64,000 nucleotides of DNA, taken from contig JAFRKG010000076.1 in assembly GCA_017431845.1 (NCBI GenBank), positions 1-64,000 on the forward strand, given 5' to 3'. How positions within the stretch are numbered: the first letter of the stretch is position 1; the number at the start of each line of letters is the position of its first letter. Position numbers and translations under genes: made by a program. The stretch comes from Methanosphaera sp. Lineage in GTDB: Archaea; Methanobacteriota; Methanobacteria; Methanobacteriales; Methanobacteriaceae. This document shows, one piece after another, positions 30,815 through 61,087 of this stretch. The notes below the pieces were generated by a model that did no database searches, was not told the DNA's origin, and saw nothing but the letters and a program-made list of their open reading frames with translations.

Positions 30815-30947
30815 AAGATCACCGATTATTTTTTAATAAATTTTCAAGATTTTTTTCTTGTATTTATTAAAGGATTTGGGTGTTTATGTGGTGGTTATTT
30901 GGAGAATAAATAAATTATCTTATTTTAGCATTGAATTGATAAAATAT

Positions 30948-31511
30948 TCAGTCTTCTATCAAGTATAATTCAGTTAAGCGTTCTTTAGTTTTTTGAACAC
31001 CTAATAATGCTTGATCAGCAGTTTTTGCTCCTGTACATACTACTTTACCAGATCCAAATAAGAGTAATACTACTTTAGGGTCAGATAATCTGTATACTAA
31101 ACCAGGGAATTGTTCAGGTTCGTATTCAGTGTTTTCTAAATCTAAAGCTACTGCTTCTAAGTTTAATACTTTTCCTAAATTAGCTGATGCTACGATGTTT
31201 TGAATTTTAATATCGTATTCTTCAGGAATTTCTGGATCTAATTCTCTGATTCTATCAACAGTCATTTTGATTGCTTTTAAAGAATCTTCAATACATTTTG
31301 CTCCAGTACAAACTAACTTACCTGATCCAAAGATTAAAGCAGCAGTTTTAGGTTCTTTAAGTTTAAATACTAAACCTGGAAATTGTTCTAGGTTGTATTC
31401 AACATTTTCTAAAGCTGGTGCAACTTTAGGTAATTCTAGTTTTCTTTCTTTTGAATCAAACAATGTTGCTGATGCTACGATGTTTTCAACTTTGATTTCT
31501 ACATCTGCCAT
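30948..31511 (-). CDS. tbp: TATA-box binding protein
   Basis: 187 residues, two repeats of about 90 residues: IVASATLFDSKERKLELP...FPGLVFKL...FGSGKLVCTGAK and IVASANLGKVLNLEAVAL...FPGLVYRL...FGSGKVVCTGAK. It bends promoter TATA boxes and recruits TFB and RNA polymerase. A GGAGG site precedes ATG 31511. The short acidic C-terminal tail (LYLIED) is typical. An upstream region near 31660-31720 holds three ACATTATGT-like repeats. Confidence 0.97.
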   Translation of the reverse strand: MADVEIKVENIVASATLFDSKERKLELPKVAPALENVEYNLEQFPGLVFKLKEPKTAALIFGSGKLVCTGAKCIEDSLKAIKMTVDRIRELDPEIPEEYDIKIQNIVASANLGKVLNLEAVALDLENTEYEPEQFPGLVYRLSDPKVVLLLFGSGKVVCTGAKTADQALLGVQKTKERLTELYLIED

Positions 31512-31776
31512 TATTTTTCCTCCATTAATGATAAAAAATTATGCATAAATTAAATATTTGGTTGAGAATTATTGTTAGTTAAAAGTAATAAAAAACTAAA
31601 AAATAATTAATTTCTTTGATAAAATCCGTATGGGAGTTTAAGAAATCAGTCAACCGCTATTTACATTATGTTTAATACATTATGTAATTTATTTAAAAAA
31701 TACTAAATAACATATTATGTATTTATATATGTAACTTTTTACTTTATAAATATACCTATATTTTATAGGTGGGTGT

Positions 31777-31879
31777 TGTCAAAATGTGTGGTGAAGTTAC
31801 CTTTTCCATCATAAAAATGCGTTTCGAGAATCCCATCTTTCAAGCTTCAAATTTAGTCTAGATAAAAATCCACGTAATG
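31777..31879 (+). repeat. 103-bp direct repeat, copy A (solitary insertion-sequence end)
   Basis: This matches 37028-37130 over 103 bases with three mismatches and no gaps. The second copy is the left end of the transposase-bearing element at 37029-40228 and includes its terminal GTCAAGATGTGTGGTGA. Copy A is not followed by transposase sequence, so it is a stranded end or the product of a past recombination. The rest of the 31.5-33.0 kb gap holds only broken transposase pieces and AT-rich DNA. Confidence 0.85.
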
Positions 31880-32042
31880 AAATAGCTTGTATATATAAAA
31901 TATTTCAGTAAATATTAGTTATATGTGCTTATTGATGAAAATAAAAGATCCTAAGAATTTTCTCCGACACTCAGTTAGTGATGAATGTTGTAATAGGTTA
32001 TGTCACTTTTTTTAAATTTCTATTTTTACATAATGTTTTATA

Positions 32043-36000: not shown

Positions 36001-36790
36001 CGGATGTTTTTTTAACAGCAATTGCTCCTGCAGTTTCATAAGCTGTAAGATTTCTGAATTTGCTGTTGCGAACAGTTACCTGAACATTTTCTCCAAGTAT
36101 TGCATTGCTGTAGTGTGAATGTGAGTTAATAAAAGTTGAATTTTCAACTATTAATTCTCCGTCATAACAAGCAATATGTGACCATTTATTATCTGTTTCA
36201 CCTTCAAATGTAGAATTTACTACTGTCAGGTTACTGTCTCTACTTGTATAAATGTCTGAAGATTCACCACCATTATTTGAAATAAATCTTGAATTGTTGA
36301 TAACCACGTTACACTTTGTTAAACAAATTCCGCCAGTTGTTTCTGGAGATGAAGAATTTTGAATAGTGATGTTTTCAAGATGATAGGTTGCACTTGCCTG
36401 ATTTAAGTTTATTGTACCGTTGAATGCATTTTTGATTATCAGATTTTTTATTGTAATGTTTTCTCCAGTTACATCAAATACACTTGCTTTGCCTTTTGCA
36501 TCAATACTGTGTCCATCACCATCTAGGATATAGTTGTTTTTAGTTATGTTTATTCCACTGGTATAATTGTTGTCAGTGTTTGTATTATAAGCATAGTTCC
36601 TAGTTAATTTAACTTCTTTTTGACTTTCACTAATCTGCTTGTTTAAATTATTGAAGTTTTCCTCTGAAGGTTCTGTTTTTAATATTTTTTCAGTATGCTT
36701 CATTTCTGTTATGTTTTTTTCAGCTGAAACAGCAGATAAAGTGAATAATATGAATATAATTAAAGTAAATATAATTATTTTATTTTTAAT
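33005..36790 (-). CDS. Secreted adhesin-like protein with papain-type (C1A) peptidase domain, ATT start
   Basis: Starting at ATG 36703 the protein would lack a signal peptide. The open frame upstream encodes KNKIIIFTLIIFILFTLSAVSA, a clear signal peptide, and begins with ATT 36790, three bases after GAGGTGGT; there is no ATG, GTG or TTG before the in-frame TGA. This gives 1261 residues. Order: signal peptide; beta-helix repeats (about 60-440); papain-like domain with Cys near 488 (MGSCWTFATTGALES), His near 637 (NHAMTLVGWDD) and Asn near 665 (IIKNSWGTNWGKDGYF); then Ig-like beta-sandwich repeats. No C-terminal membrane anchor is seen. Probably a surface protein that processes or binds host or microbial material. 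Confidence 0.85.
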   Translation of the reverse strand: MKNKIIIFTLIIFILFTLSAVSAEKNITEMKHTEKILKTEPSEENFNNLNKQISESQKEVKLTRNYAYNTNTDNNYTSGINITKNNYILDGDGHSIDAKGKASVFDVTGENITIKNLIIKNAFNGTINLNQASATYHLENITIQNSSSPETTGGICLTKCNVVINNSRFISNNGGESSDIYTSRDSNLTVVNSTFEGETDNKWSHIACYDGELIVENSTFINSHSHYSNAILGENVQVTVRNSKFRNLTAYETAGAIAVKKTSDLTVINCDFTDVSAFKNGGMIFADINDGYEVKIVNSTFNEGFSQFGGTIMQLGGNLFISNSTIKDTQATFDGAAVWTSYANVSIENSTIKNNTHLRKDLEIGGTLYFDNGDINIKSSTFTDNHGSGNSDVIFTYDSKLTLENNTFKDNGLAVYTVFGTENISSNNIFNNDRVSVNNTYYSTNVFNKGVKLNLKNQTVYNNTLPEKFNLKDEGLVGPVRDQGIMGSCWTFATTGALESALLKSTGKLYDFSQDHMQNTMLQYSLNGVNGIVEGAIQSTGVGYTVNWYGPYPTMRDTYDELGKVSQHINIENESIHIQDVMFIPSRQNATDNDIFKKVLMDHGAFMIASYFGESSKYFNQETASRYYNGNKSQNHAMTLVGWDDNFSASNFLVTPPGDGAWIIKNSWGTNWGKDGYFYLSYYDRSIDGYPFYAAYIFNNTVPYNKNYQTDAGQISAIAQEYKYYSNTYTASEDDLIAAVGTYFEEPDIEYNFDIYVNKELKHTQSGISPFSGYHTIKLTEYIPISANDTFKVVFKNNSLPYECTSRQHHKTNTSFASSDGVNWEDVGKENVTVILKVYTVENNAVLTVDPIKDIKIGDTIKITGRFVDKENNSITNAPLNVKVNNETYIVITDNYGKYELSYTNNKGGINNVNVMSLDREYWAANTNTTFTAKKLNVSVSVYEIIGTIGEDITLRATITDENGNPVDGGNLVFKMNGRTLRIDGQFNSDKTPYKFKVKDGIVTFTLQATKYIRNAKNLTASYSGNYKYVEAKANVADVKIQKRKAQVSVSITPNNTRQNNDIVFTATLYDVTKNANNTNCLTENASIIFKVNGVTIKSSNHIVNKIQVNSTVVNYVYHIPSGMGGANANGTKDYVVEAVYDNPSFYPNTRNSSIFNVQRSKVNINFINTTVNNNVLSLKATFTDFEDKYLVGTNKVCVKINGKTYQENGHAKYFNITGGKVDLTGIKLANNTKVKEVMLVTGANQGYLEARATTKDIQTI

Positions 36791-37027
36791 ATTACCACCT
36801 CTATTTCATTTGATTAAATATATTAATACTTGTTACTCATTAGAATATGGTAACTCATTGTAAATGTAATATTTTTTTTGATATATCGTGAAAATAGAAG
36901 AACGTCTTACAATGTATTATATATTTTAACCATACTCTTGTATAATAAACTAACCAATTTCTATTGATTAATTACAATGTTTATATTTTTTAATTATTAA
37001 ATAATTTTTTATAAATTATAATGGTGG

Positions 37028-37130
37028 TGTCAAGATGTGTGGTGAAGTTACCTTTTTCATCATAAAAATGCATTTCGAGAATCCCATCTTTCAAGCTTCA
37101 AATTTAGTCTAGATAAAAATCCACGTAATG
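37028..37130 (+). repeat. 103-bp direct repeat, copy B (left end of the outer insertion sequence)
   Basis: Same length as copy A at 31777-31879, differing at three positions. It starts with the terminal sequence of the outer element and ends just before the 3' end of its transposase remnant. The two copies, in direct orientation about 5.25 kb apart, bracket the adhesin gene and the older transposase fragments. Confidence 0.85.
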
Positions 37131-37699
37131 TTTTAAATTTATTTTTAAAGATTTGGTGCAAGATCACCAAAAATACGCTCAATCCAATTACTAGTTCGTT
37201 CAATAAAACTATCTTCAAGAAACATAGTTAAATAACGAGAATAAGGACGAATCTTTTTATCAACAATCTCATTAATAACATTCGAAAACTCTTCACGCCT
37301 ACTAAAAATATTATCCAATATATCTAATACTTCAAATCTATTTTCTACTTCGTAAATTTGATAAACTTCTTCCAAATAATTTTTATATTCCATATGGGTC
37401 TCTTTTCTGAGATATTGTTCTCTTTTACATGATTGTATAAGTATTTATTGATGTTTTGTTTTGCATAGAATTAACAGAATTGGTGTTTGAACCCTAAATC
37501 TTGTATTGGTTTTCTATAAGCAATATGTAAGTCAGTTGTAATTGCTTTACGAGGTTGATTAAGAGTAGCATTCCGTAAGAAATTATAAACTTCAGTACTG
37601 TTTTCTTCTTCAACTATTTTATAATCCACCAATGTTCTATGATGTACATCAAATAATGCAAAGAAATAAACATAATTATCACCAATTTCATCTATTTTA

Positions 37700-39461
37700 G
37701 ACACTGTCCAATATCTATGGGGATGAATTTTCCTCATTTACTTAAAATGATGAATTTAATAAACTGTTTTTATTTTTTGTTGATTAAATATTTAGTATTG
37801 TTTAATTAAAAAGAGTTGTGTTTTGTTATCCTTATTGTTATGGGGGATTATTTGTATAATTTAATATACATTGTAGTTGTTATTGTTTTAGTTGTTTATT
37901 GGGATTTATAGGGTTATTGATTTGAATAGGTTTAGTTTAGTTTTGTATTAGCAATTTAGAGTTCATAGATATCTATAAATATTGGTAGGAGTAATATATA
38001 TTATTATGTGTCGAAATAAAACTCCTACCAATAATATATTAGATTTAACTTGTCTTAAATCTATCGTTTCTCATGATGTTGATGAAATTATTTTACCTGA
38101 TTGTTTGAGTCCTGATTTTTTATTAATCTTTAATATGTTGGATTTATATGATTTTAATGTTACTTATGTTCTAAGTGATGAAGAATGTCCGGATTGTGGT
38201 GGTAAGTTACATTCTAAGAGTTATCCTACTCGTAAACCTAATGGTTTAGAAAATGTTCGAATTAAGGATTATGAATGTTCTGTTTGTCATAAACGTGTCA
38301 GTGCTAGTTTTGATGAATTTATTGAACGTAGTTCTAATTATACTCGTGCTGTAAAGCATTGGGGTGTTAAATTATCCGAAATTGGTGAAGAATCTTTTGA
38401 AAAGAAATCAGAATTATTTGAAGCAATATTTGGTATAAATCTACCAAAATCAACAGTATTTGACCATCAAAATAAAGTATCAGATACATATCTAGAAAAT
38501 AAAGAAGCATTAGTAGAAGCTTATGTTGAATCTGAAGGATTGAAGGATAATGGAGTGTATCACTATGATGAGCAGTTTCCTAGAGCTGATGGAGATAGTA
38601 TGGCTCGCTTAATGATGTTAGATGCAGAAACTATGTATCCTTACTATGATTATTTAGAAAATGCAACATTATTTGATGCTGAATTAATAGAAAAAATACT
38701 TCCACATAGTTTTAGATGACATTCCCCACAGTGCAATGGTAACTGATGGATATAGTGCATATCCTTCTATAATAGAAAGTTTTGACATGTTACAACAACG
38801 ATGTGTATTCCACATGATGTATAACGTAGGACAAGAAGTATATCCGATAATTAACAGGATAACAAGAACTAATAAAGACAAATACAGCAGATTAGATAAA
38901 ACAAACGAAAAACTAAAGAAAACACTTGATGCCTACGAACCAACCATTGGACCAATAACTGACAAAAAACAGAAAAAACTACACGATACCATCAAAGAAC
39001 TAGAAAAAGAAATCAAAACAATAAAAAAGACTATAAAACGTAATGATAAAAAGATTAAAGAACTAAATAACTATTTAGAAAGAATGTCCAATATATTCAA
39101 AGCAGAAAATTTATCGTTAGCTAAAGGACGTTTATCACGATTAACCAACAATTCGGATTTCTTACCTAATTGTATAGCTAATAGTGCCAACAGAATTAAA
39201 AGTAACTTCAAAGAACTAACAACATTCATGGAAAACGAATTAATACCAAAAACCAACAACTTAATAGAATTATACTTTAAAACCACACTTCCAGGACATT
39301 TAAAACGCAGATACAGAACCACCAAAGGATTATTAAGAAGACTAAAAAGTGCAAGAATACGCTGGATCCAAAGAAATGTACTAAATGATAAATCACCAAT
39401 CACCAACTTCTTCAATTATGACTACATAAACCTACTATCCCCATAGATTTCGGATAGTGCC
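37700..39461 (+). mobile_element. Inner insertion sequence nested in the outer transposase (1762 bp)
   Basis: Inverted repeats of about 25 bp with four mismatches begin GACACTGTCC at 37700 and, on the other strand, GGCACTATCC at 39461; both continue to ATCTATGGGGAT. The flanks carry a direct repeat TATTTTA at 37693-37699 and 39462-39468 (8 bp if one end base is counted). Removing the element and one copy of the repeat makes the outer transposase read VFDSLWVKIDEIGDNYVYFF in frame, which proves the borders. It contains one transposase gene on the plus strand. Confidence 0.9.
38006..39446 (+). pseudogene. Transposase of the inner insertion sequence, split by one frameshift
   Basis: From ATG 38006 the first part has a four-Cys zinc ribbon (CPDCGGK...CSVCHKR) and HYDEQFPRADGDSMARLM, then ends at TGA near 38717. 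The second part continues one frame over from KYFHIVLDDIPHSA into MVTDGYSAYPSI (catalytic Asp) and a long coiled region to TAG 39446 inside the right inverted repeat. The change of frame falls at a run of six A at about 38694-38699; one A fewer restores a single protein of about 480 residues. It could be a real mutation, transcript slippage or a sequence error. The IS family was not settled. Confidence 0.8.
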
Positions 39462-40292
39462 TATTTTAACCCATAAACTATCAAATACATAATATCCAGA
39501 ATAATTTTCTATATTAGACTCATATTTAATACTATAATCGACTACAATGTCCTGTACTTCCTGGTAAGATAAGTATACATTATGAATTCTTTTCATGATT
39601 TCCTGTATTCTACGAACTGGAGTACCACAAATAGCAGAGTAATTCTATATTATCTTCATAATACGCCTGGAAACACTGAAATTACCAAACACATTCAAAA
39701 CAAGTTTTTTAGGATAATAACCATCTTCAACAACATGTTTAGAACCACAATGAGGACAATAACTCCTAAATTGAGTAAAAACAACACCATCTTTAGTTTC
39801 AAAAACTTTCAAATTATTAGTAATCTGAGATAGCTTAGATTTCACATAACCCTCAGCAAAAGTAACTGGAAGATCATCATCAAAATAATTATCCAAATAA
39901 TCTACAATCAAATCTTTACAATCAACAGATAATAAATTTACACATTCATCATCAGTATTATCTTTTCTAATAACATCAACCAATGGTTCACTAAAAAAAC
40001 CGTCAAGTTTAAGTTGATGATCAACATAATTAATAATAGGAGAGTTATTTTCTACTTTCATAATATAATATCTCTCCTTTTTACTATAAAAACTTCATTA
40101 TCACTTATTTTTAAAAACACACCCCAATGGGCGATAAAACTAGTAAAAATTAACATTTAAAATGAATTAAAAAAAGTATTACTTTTTTGCTAAAAAGTAA
40201 CTGAAAATTCATCACCACACATTCTGACTACATCATTTTATATGAATATTTTTCCTAATATAATATATTGACAAAAAAATGTGGACAAAATT

Positions 40293-58659: not shown

Positions 58660-60759
58660 TTAGAATGATATACTTGTGTATCTTTTAACTGTAGATGATT
58701 TGTACCAGTTATTTATTACTCCAAATGTATTTCTGCTTGAAGTAGTATCACATTTATACCATTGACCATTTACATAAACTTCTGTCCATACGTGACCTAC
58801 TACAAGACCACTTGTGAAGTAACATGTTGCATGACAATACCTTGCAGGTAATCGTGCTGTACGGAACATACCAATCAATACGTGTGATTGATCTACACAG
58901 TTACCATAACCTCTACTTAAAGTTCCTAATGCTCCATATCTAGTATTCATGTAAAACTGATAATCAGTTACAGCATTTACATAATCAAATATAGCTTTTG
59001 CTTGAGCATATAAAGAAGTAGCACCACTAATTGCTTTTTTAACAGCATTATACATAGTTGTACTGTTTACATAAGCGTTCTTAGCACTGCCCAGGTATTG
59101 TTCAAATCCGGAAGGTACATCATTATCCGTTGCTGATCCACTGCTTGAAGAGGATGAACTAGATGAAGATGATGATGAACTTGAAGATGAAGTAGAAATC
59201 TTATCTATTCCAACATAATTTGGCAACCGATTGTGTTCAGCTAAATAACCAATTACTCTTGAGTAAGCATAAACAGCATCAGTAAAGCTTAAGGTTAAAC
59301 CTGAATTACTTTTCATAGTTTTTGGAGCACGTCCATTTTCTATATAAGAGTCAACTATAGTCTTAGCCAAAGCCATATAATCTTTAGTGTAGAAGTTAAT
59401 ATTATACTGGGATGTGCCGGTTGATGATGAAGGTGTTGAAAATCCTCCATTATGGAAAGAATCATTATATGTTAACATTTGTGTATACATGTATAATAGA
59501 TCTGCCATTGATACTTCGTTACCACCCATAGCTGCATAGTTAGGTAATCTATTATTGTTTTTAATAAAATCTCTAACTGATACTCCTTTTTCAAGTAATT
59601 GAGCATAAGTATAAGTTGAAACTAAATCTGATTGAACCCTTAATGTTGTATTTTTTCTTACTTCATTTAATGCACCAGAACCACCATATACTACAGTTAC
59701 AACGTAATGCTCTTCATCTAATTTGCTTGAATCATACTTGTATTCAGCGGTACTGTCAACCATTTTTACTGTTGCAACTGTTTTTCCATTTATTTTGAAA
59801 CCAAGTTTACCTGTAGCATCAGTGTAACCAACATCTGTTAATTTTGCTTTTAATGTTACGGTATAACCTTTTTTAACAAAAATTAATGAATCAACATCTA
59901 TTTTAGGTGTTCTTTTCTTAACTACTAATTTAGCCGAAGTTTCTTTATAAGATGAAACTGTGGTTTCTCCTATTTTTAATATTAATGGATAAGTTTTTGC
60001 CTTAGCAGGGACAACACAAGTTACTGATGCTACCCCATTTTGTACTATTGTAGAACCAATAGTTTTTCCGTTTATTTTGAAAACTGCTTTTGTACTATTT
60101 ACTGGTGTTCCATCTTCATAATTAACATTAGCTTTTAATGTTGTTTTTGCTGCAGATAAGACTTCAGAATCTTCTAATGTAACAATTACATTATGTCTCT
60201 TAATTAATAAAGACGAAGTTGCTTTTGTAGTTGCTGTTTCTGAAGTTTCACCTACTGTTATTGATATATCATATTCTTTTGCATGCCATTTTGGTAGCAT
60301 ATAATTAAAGGATATGATTCCATTAGTAACTCTTGGATGACCTATAGTATTTCCATTAATTTTAATAGCAGTTTTTGCATCTTTTAAGATTTCACCATTT
60401 TGATAAGTAACACTTGCTTTTATTGTGATTAATTGATTTGCATATGATGTTATTGGTTGAGATGTTATGATAACTTTTTCTTTGTTTGCTGCTGTCTTTG
60501 TGTTAGAATTGTTTGTTGATTGTTTTGATATTGTTTTCTCATCGGATGAAATATCATTTGTTATAGCTTCATATTCATTGCTTACCGTATTTTTTATAGA
60601 ATTTGATTCTATATTGGTATTACTCTCTGTTTGTGTATTTGTAACAACATCTGATGTTAAATCATTTGTTGTAGTATTTTCATTGCTATCTGTTGCAGAT
60701 ATTGCGGAAATACTGAGTAAGATTGAAACAAAGAGAACCAAAATCAAACTTCTCTTAAT
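58660..60759 (-). CDS. Secreted transglutaminase-like protein with pseudomurein-binding repeats, ATT start
   Basis: 699 residues if ATT 60759 is used. The longest ATG/GTG/TTG frame (TTG 60747) cuts the charged n-region off the signal peptide; ATT 60759 lies 7 bases after GGAGG and yields KRSLILVLFVSILLSISAISA after the start. Then Thr/Ser/Asn-rich spacer (25-95), three Ig-like (Big_3-type) repeats (about 95-375), two pseudomurein-binding repeats (VRDFIKNNNRLPNY and AEHNRLPNYVGI regions), a run of about 17 Ser, and a transglutaminase-like domain with YGNCVDQSHV (Cys), VVGHVWTEVYV (His) and YKCDTTSS (Asp). Likely a wall-bound peptide-cutting or remodelling enzyme. Confidence 0.87.
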   Translation of the reverse strand: MKRSLILVLFVSILLSISAISATDSNENTTTNDLTSDVVTNTQTESNTNIESNSIKNTVSNEYEAITNDISSDEKTISKQSTNNSNTKTAANKEKVIITSQPITSYANQLITIKASVTYQNGEILKDAKTAIKINGNTIGHPRVTNGIISFNYMLPKWHAKEYDISITVGETSETATTKATSSLLIKRHNVIVTLEDSEVLSAAKTTLKANVNYEDGTPVNSTKAVFKINGKTIGSTIVQNGVASVTCVVPAKAKTYPLILKIGETTVSSYKETSAKLVVKKRTPKIDVDSLIFVKKGYTVTLKAKLTDVGYTDATGKLGFKINGKTVATVKMVDSTAEYKYDSSKLDEEHYVVTVVYGGSGALNEVRKNTTLRVQSDLVSTYTYAQLLEKGVSVRDFIKNNNRLPNYAAMGGNEVSMADLLYMYTQMLTYNDSFHNGGFSTPSSSTGTSQYNINFYTKDYMALAKTIVDSYIENGRAPKTMKSNSGLTLSFTDAVYAYSRVIGYLAEHNRLPNYVGIDKISTSSSSSSSSSSSSSSSSSGSATDNDVPSGFEQYLGSAKNAYVNSTTMYNAVKKAISGATSLYAQAKAIFDYVNAVTDYQFYMNTRYGALGTLSRGYGNCVDQSHVLIGMFRTARLPARYCHATCYFTSGLVVGHVWTEVYVNGQWYKCDTTSSRNTFGVINNWYKSSTVKRYTSISF

Positions 60760-61087
60760 CTTATCGCCTCCTATACAACCAAAAAAAAGATTCTGTATGA
60801 ATCGGATTAAATATATTGTATTAATTTTTTTATGGTTTGTTTTTAGTGATCAATTTTTTTCAAAATTAATAAGCTATGAAAATTAAGAATCTATACAATT
60901 CTTAAGAATAACTTATCTTTTTATAAGTATTTAAAGATATAGTAAAAAGATTTATATATAGGGGACATTAATAGTTAAAAAAAGTTTAAAAATATTGAAA
61001 ATTATTATATTGCTGGGAAAAAAATTGAAACCAAAAAGTATATAAATAAGTTCGGAGATATTTTATATTGTACTACATGTACTAAAT
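60760..61087. promoter_or_regulatory. Intergenic region with tRNA-Gln promoter
   Basis: Apart from the ribosome site of the transglutaminase gene, no gene is seen. BRE/TATA-like CCAAAAAGTATATAAATA at about 61031-61047 lies about 40 bases before the tRNA. On the other strand the transglutaminase promoter must lie near 60790-60860 but no clear box stands out. A GATTTATATATAGG segment near 60950 is a further TATA-like site. Confidence 0.5.

Follow-up and report, generated by a model that had tools for sequence, protein, structure and literature searches.

The window analysed here, a stretch of 64,000 nucleotides from a Methanosphaera contig, carries two genes for secreted proteins on its minus strand whose frames lack a usual start codon at the expected position. 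The first of them (gene 1) encodes an adhesin-like protein and lies in a segment bracketed by direct repeats. The initial annotation had given no strand for its start region, which we place on the minus strand. The features of this part of the window are as follows.

31772..31879, plus strand: left copy of the direct repeat bracketing the gene 1 segment
33005..36790, minus strand: gene 1, adhesin-like secreted protein, an open frame of 1261 codons counted from the ATT
36701..36703, minus strand: first in-frame ATG of gene 1, with no Shine-Dalgarno (SD) sequence, 3' of the signal peptide, the choice of gene callers
36722..36790, minus strand: signal peptide IKNKIIIFTLIIFILFTLSAVSA, from translation and a hydrophobicity scan, with cleavage predicted before EKN
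36788..36790, minus strand: ATT, inferred start codon of gene 1, from the in-frame TGA to the hydrophobic core the sole start-like codon preceded by a modally spaced SD
36794..36802, minus strand: SD-like sequence AGAGGTGGT, 3 nt ahead of the ATT in the AGGAGGTGAT register
36806..36808, minus strand: in-frame TGA closing the gene 1 frame upstream
37023..37130, plus strand: right copy of the direct repeat, 96% identical, inside an IS-like repeat

The gene 1 protein contains the Pfam domains PF13229, PF00112, PF18560 and Big_1/Big_3_5, and its modules comprise a right-handed beta-helix, a papain-family C1 peptidase, a lectin-like domain and Ig-like repeats. The signal peptide, found by translation and hydrophobicity scan, together with the beta-helix or Ig-like repeats and the papain-family domain, places it among the adhesin-like/C1 peptidase proteins. 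The minus strand from 36808 reads TGA AAT AGA GGT GGT AAT ATT AAA AAT AAA ATA ATT ATA TTT ACT TTA, and the signal peptide, which has a hydrophobic core between a basic N-region and a terminal A-X-A, runs through IKNKIIIFTLIIFILFTLSAVSA into EKNITE. At the cleavage site the codons TCA GCT are followed by GAA AAA AAC ATA ACA GAA and the ATG at 36703, which is 29 codons 3' of the ATT at 36790-36788. No in-frame ATG, GTG, TTG or CTG was found between the TGA at 36808-36806 and this ATG. The minus-strand reading thereby bears out two statements of the initial annotation, that a full signal peptide is encoded upstream of ATG 36703, and that this frame is preceded by a stop and by no usual start. The AGGAGGTGAT register is most often located 3 nt before ATG in samples of the genomes G000, G010 and G016, which is the spacing seen at gene 1. 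An SD at modal spacing and no canonical start from the upstream stop to the coding region were the features by which an AUU-initiated gene was recognized, and gene 1 has both. Two other candidates near the SD were considered: the GTG inside GAGGTGGT was rejected as a start because it is in a different frame, and a mini-ORF, ATG AAA TAG, located just 5' of the SD was set aside because it is absent from the other ATT genes.

The second gene in the window (gene 2) has the same arrangement.

58660..60759, minus strand: gene 2, secreted protein with a pseudomurein-binding repeat and a transglutaminase-like core (PF09373, PF01841)
60757..60759, minus strand: ATT, inferred start codon of gene 2, conserved in the Methanosphaera genomes where the site was read
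60763..60772, minus strand: SD AGGAGGCGAT of gene 2, 3 nt before the ATT

Read from the ATT at 60759-60757, the N-terminus of gene 2 is IKRSLILVLFVSILLSISAISA, followed by the pseudomurein-binding repeat. The ATT was retained in all 14 Methanosphaera genomes where the site was read, including the same-species genome G010, which is 99% identical to the window at this site. An in-frame TTG is present four codons after the ATT in most species, is absent in G004, and is too far from the SD. A further family, with Ig-like repeats and a transglutaminase-like domain, showed GGAGGTTTTATA-ATT-AAG in 15 of the 15 genomes matched, and the site was nearly invariant from the SD through codon 3. These genomes were found with a pattern allowing two mismatches, which left five genomes without a match; because the pattern itself contained ATT, genomes with another codon and further changes could have been missed. 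In the 14 genomes of this family that were examined, the upstream stop is four codons off with no NTG in between, and in three genomes (L196, L197 and L199) there is no NTG within 30 codons after the ATT.

QueE was found by protein search, so that its count is free of the bias of an ATT-containing pattern. Among 20 Methanosphaera genomes (L153-L172), the codon at the start position was ATT in 14, ATC in four, ACG in one and ATG in one, whereas the aligned codon was ATG in 37 of 38 other Methanobacteriaceae genomes (Fisher p = 4e-13, not corrected for phylogeny). QueE in Methanosphaera places AUU or AUC (AUH) exactly at the position of the AUG of its relatives. No NTG at all occurs from the stop to the EIFSS-QGEG motif in 17 of the 20, and in two Methanosphaera genomes an ATG is found only 5' of the SD. 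G013, the most diverged Methanosphaera, has ATG at the site. The lone genome outside the genus without ATG, G020 (L305), carries ATT at the site and a GTG three codons before it.

Similar codons were observed in other genes. UppP (L173-L191) has ATT in G000, G010, G007 and G015 at a codon that is TTG, ATG or GTG in most relatives; in the ATT genomes, the SD itself contains an in-frame GTG. At the aligned site of one adhesin family, G003 has ATG and G002 has ATT, and single ATT cases were further found in two adhesins of G016 (L115) and one of G007 (L343). Some homologues of gene 1 (L002 and L011-L014) start with ATG and others (L017 and L031) apparently with ATC; in G008 and G017, the homologues carry ATC behind an SD-like leader, with the usual start missing there. 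The anatomy of these ATT starts, their recurrence and their conservation across species are seen directly in the sequences. Separately, a pyruvate-carboxyltransferase-type gene of G004, INIYDTTLRDGEQTPG (L340, near 1514, minus strand), which resembles isopropylmalate, citramalate or homocitrate synthases, has an SD-spaced ATT, with no NTG for 15 codons past the ATT nor back to the stop.

To assess chance, we counted codons at SD-positioned sites in genomes sampled in stretches enriched for adhesin loci, using ORFs of at least 200 codons whose first NTG was at least four codons 3' of the site; the strict setting took SD runs of at least 6 and spacings of 2-4. ATT occupied eight of the 11 SD-positioned sites ahead of the first NTG, where 0.64 were expected (p = 1.9e-8, with orthologues counted repeatedly), and five of eight after orthologues were collapsed to families (p = 3.2e-5). 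ATA is commoner upstream than ATT, yet it occupied only 0-3 of the filtered SD sites (one at the strict setting), and ATC occupied none. In signal-peptide-like ORFs preceded by a strong SD, the codon best placed was ATT for six of 22 (G010), five of 30 (G000) and five of 19 (G016). It was the commonest non-ATG codon in such secreted-type ORFs, and ATA and ATC, scored alike, gave none. Four of these 16 ATT sites read ATTATG and belong to ordinary ATG genes, which were left out of the count of AUU starts. Among the remaining 12, two (L068 and its G000 counterpart, L082) have a GTG two codons upstream as an alternative, and L065 and L130 have an ATG or GTG nearby. The excess appeared only with the NTG filter, that is, at sites neither preceded nor closely followed by an NTG; a codon tally near SDs without it gave no clear ATT excess. 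Likewise, AGGAGG-N5-8-ATTAAR was not enriched over a reversed control in 20 genomes, which indicates that AUU starts are few per genome and that the set is small.

Taken with this recurrence, gene 1 is very probably translated from the AUU at 36790, as one case of a Methanosphaera habit of starting a few genes at AUU or AUC. The initial annotation had offered AUU initiation as one of two readings, and it is now well supported, since at least three other gene families begin with a conserved AUU or AUC throughout the genus. The ATT start of gene 1 looks like a genus-wide trait rather than a single broken gene. As judged from sequence, AUU/AUC would be a real start codon, though probably a weak one, in a small group of genes that includes several surface or cell-wall proteins, QueE and, in some species, UppP. 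Because widely used gene callers accept ATG, GTG and TTG alone as starts, genes beginning at AUU or AUC would be annotated without signal peptides or with truncated N-termini.

A plausible mechanism requires no unusual initiator. A search of G016 for an initiator tRNA whose anticodon is altered found an initiator of the normal archaeal type with the normal CAU anticodon, and the tRNA-Ile(GAU) of this genome is not initiator-like. At gene 1, the SD 3 nt upstream would position the 30S subunit at the AUU. The ordinary CAU initiator tRNA would then pair with AUU or AUC through two standard pairs and a third-position mismatch, with insertion of Met, and the product would be the secreted adhesin-like protein. 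We infer that the ribosome initiates at AUU, that Met is inserted and that expression lies below the level given by AUG; for gene 1, reduced expression from the ATT is possible.

An extension of this explanation, and compatible with it, is that selection keeps AUU and AUC as deliberately weak or regulated starts, following a logic like that of infC and perhaps sensed through aIF1, which we consider a tentative proposal. QueE stayed off ATG through the divergence of 19 genomes, switching between ATT and ATC and never returning to ATG, which suggests that the weak start may be deliberately retained. The near-invariance of the Ig/transglutaminase site from the SD to codon 3 points the same way. 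The factor aIF1 is described as an archaeal fidelity factor that destabilizes non-AUG complexes (PMC6237735; also PMC8211752). Its basic C-terminal tail is missing in all 15 Methanosphaera genomes with a match, and a longer basic tail is present in 24 of 26 other family members. However, the outgroup G030 and likewise G013 have a tail-less aIF1 and yet start QueE with ATG, on which grounds tail loss was rejected as a sufficient cause; it appears to be a correlate and serves as a lead only. The genes also share no obvious regulatory theme beyond being mostly cell-surface genes. A Methanosphaera AUU/AUC regulon of surface proteins, cell-wall enzymes and QueE, selected for weak or conditional initiation and enabled by a changed aIF1, might be entertained, though we consider it less likely than not. 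In the sequences themselves, Methanosphaera aIF1 (L262, L264, L265, L276 and L306-L316) ends at DTIEIK and has a change of T/S to K before VKV.

The other reading in the initial annotation was that an ATG of gene 1 had mutated to ATT, so that the secreted form is switched off or reduced. This reading draws on the homologues that begin with ATG (L002 and L011-L014) and on the history of the locus. In G010, one direct-repeat copy is present and the 5-kb gene 1 segment is absent, the window segments 30900-31909 and 36987-37699 adjoining with an overlap over one repeat copy; G010 either lost the segment through recombination between the repeats or never had it. As the segment is absent from a same-species genome and flanked by IS-related repeats, the gene may be dispensable. 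Nevertheless, the 1261-codon frame is unbroken, the SD and its spacing are intact, and AUU is a conserved start in other genes of the genus. With ATT tolerated as a start in Methanosphaera, the main argument for a loss of the start has fallen away, and we regard it as unlikely. Next to the right repeat copy, an IS-like element (37700-39460, plus strand) sits inside another IS-like repeat (37024-37699 plus 39461-39500); it has an 85% copy at G000:C70 and 76% copies in G010.

A sequencing or assembly error, with the true base giving ATG, is still less likely. No orthologue of the gene 1 start region was found, the segment being absent from G010, the sole same-species genome compared, and a contig search with the gene 1 protein found no useful relative. 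Because gene 1 has no orthologue for comparison and the assembly is a draft in 203 contigs, its ATT could reflect a base error or a recent mutation. However, G010 and other assemblies agree with the window on the ATT of gene 2, which argues that ATT starts are real in Methanosphaera. Translation from ATG 36703 with the upstream hydrophobic stretch left untranslated is highly improbable, since this ATG, although the first canonical in-frame start codon, has no SD before it and would leave an adhesin-like protein lacking the signal peptide that its homologues carry, and an untranslated stretch is unlikely to encode an in-frame signal peptide behind a modally spaced SD.

Initiation at AUU, the preferred reading for gene 1, bears on how start codons are described in archaea. 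Archaeal starts are given as AUG, GUG and UUG in one review (PMC7531240), and non-canonical translation in archaea was described in a 2021 review as demonstrated only for elongation and termination (PMC8211752). In the open-access literature, to which the search was largely confined, AUU starts turned up neither for Methanosphaera nor for archaea in general. Conserved AUU/AUC starts in one genus would offer a direct test of archaeal start-codon discrimination. If true, a selected AUU/AUC regulon would give archaea their first case of non-NTG initiation conserved across a genus.

The closest known systems are bacterial, where AUU starts occur in infC, encoding IF3, and in pcnB. As in Methanosphaera, a chromosomal gene there has a conserved AUU start that follows a strong SD. 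In bacteria, however, one or two genes are involved and the start is tied to discrimination by IF3, whereas here an archaeal genus has a small, mainly surface-related set together with QueE, no IF3, and aIF1 as the would-be discriminator. Streptomyces sigR is described as having a GTC start by which an initiation factor lowers or regulates its expression (PMC5472188); this differs from Methanosphaera in the codon, in concerning a single regulator gene and in involving bacterial IF3. With respect to its protein, gene 1 resembles the adhesin-like proteins of Methanobrevibacter and Methanosphaera, which are large, secreted and modular, with beta-helix, Ig-like and peptidase or transglutaminase domains. 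Compared with these, it is the start codon of gene 1 that is unusual, not the type of protein.
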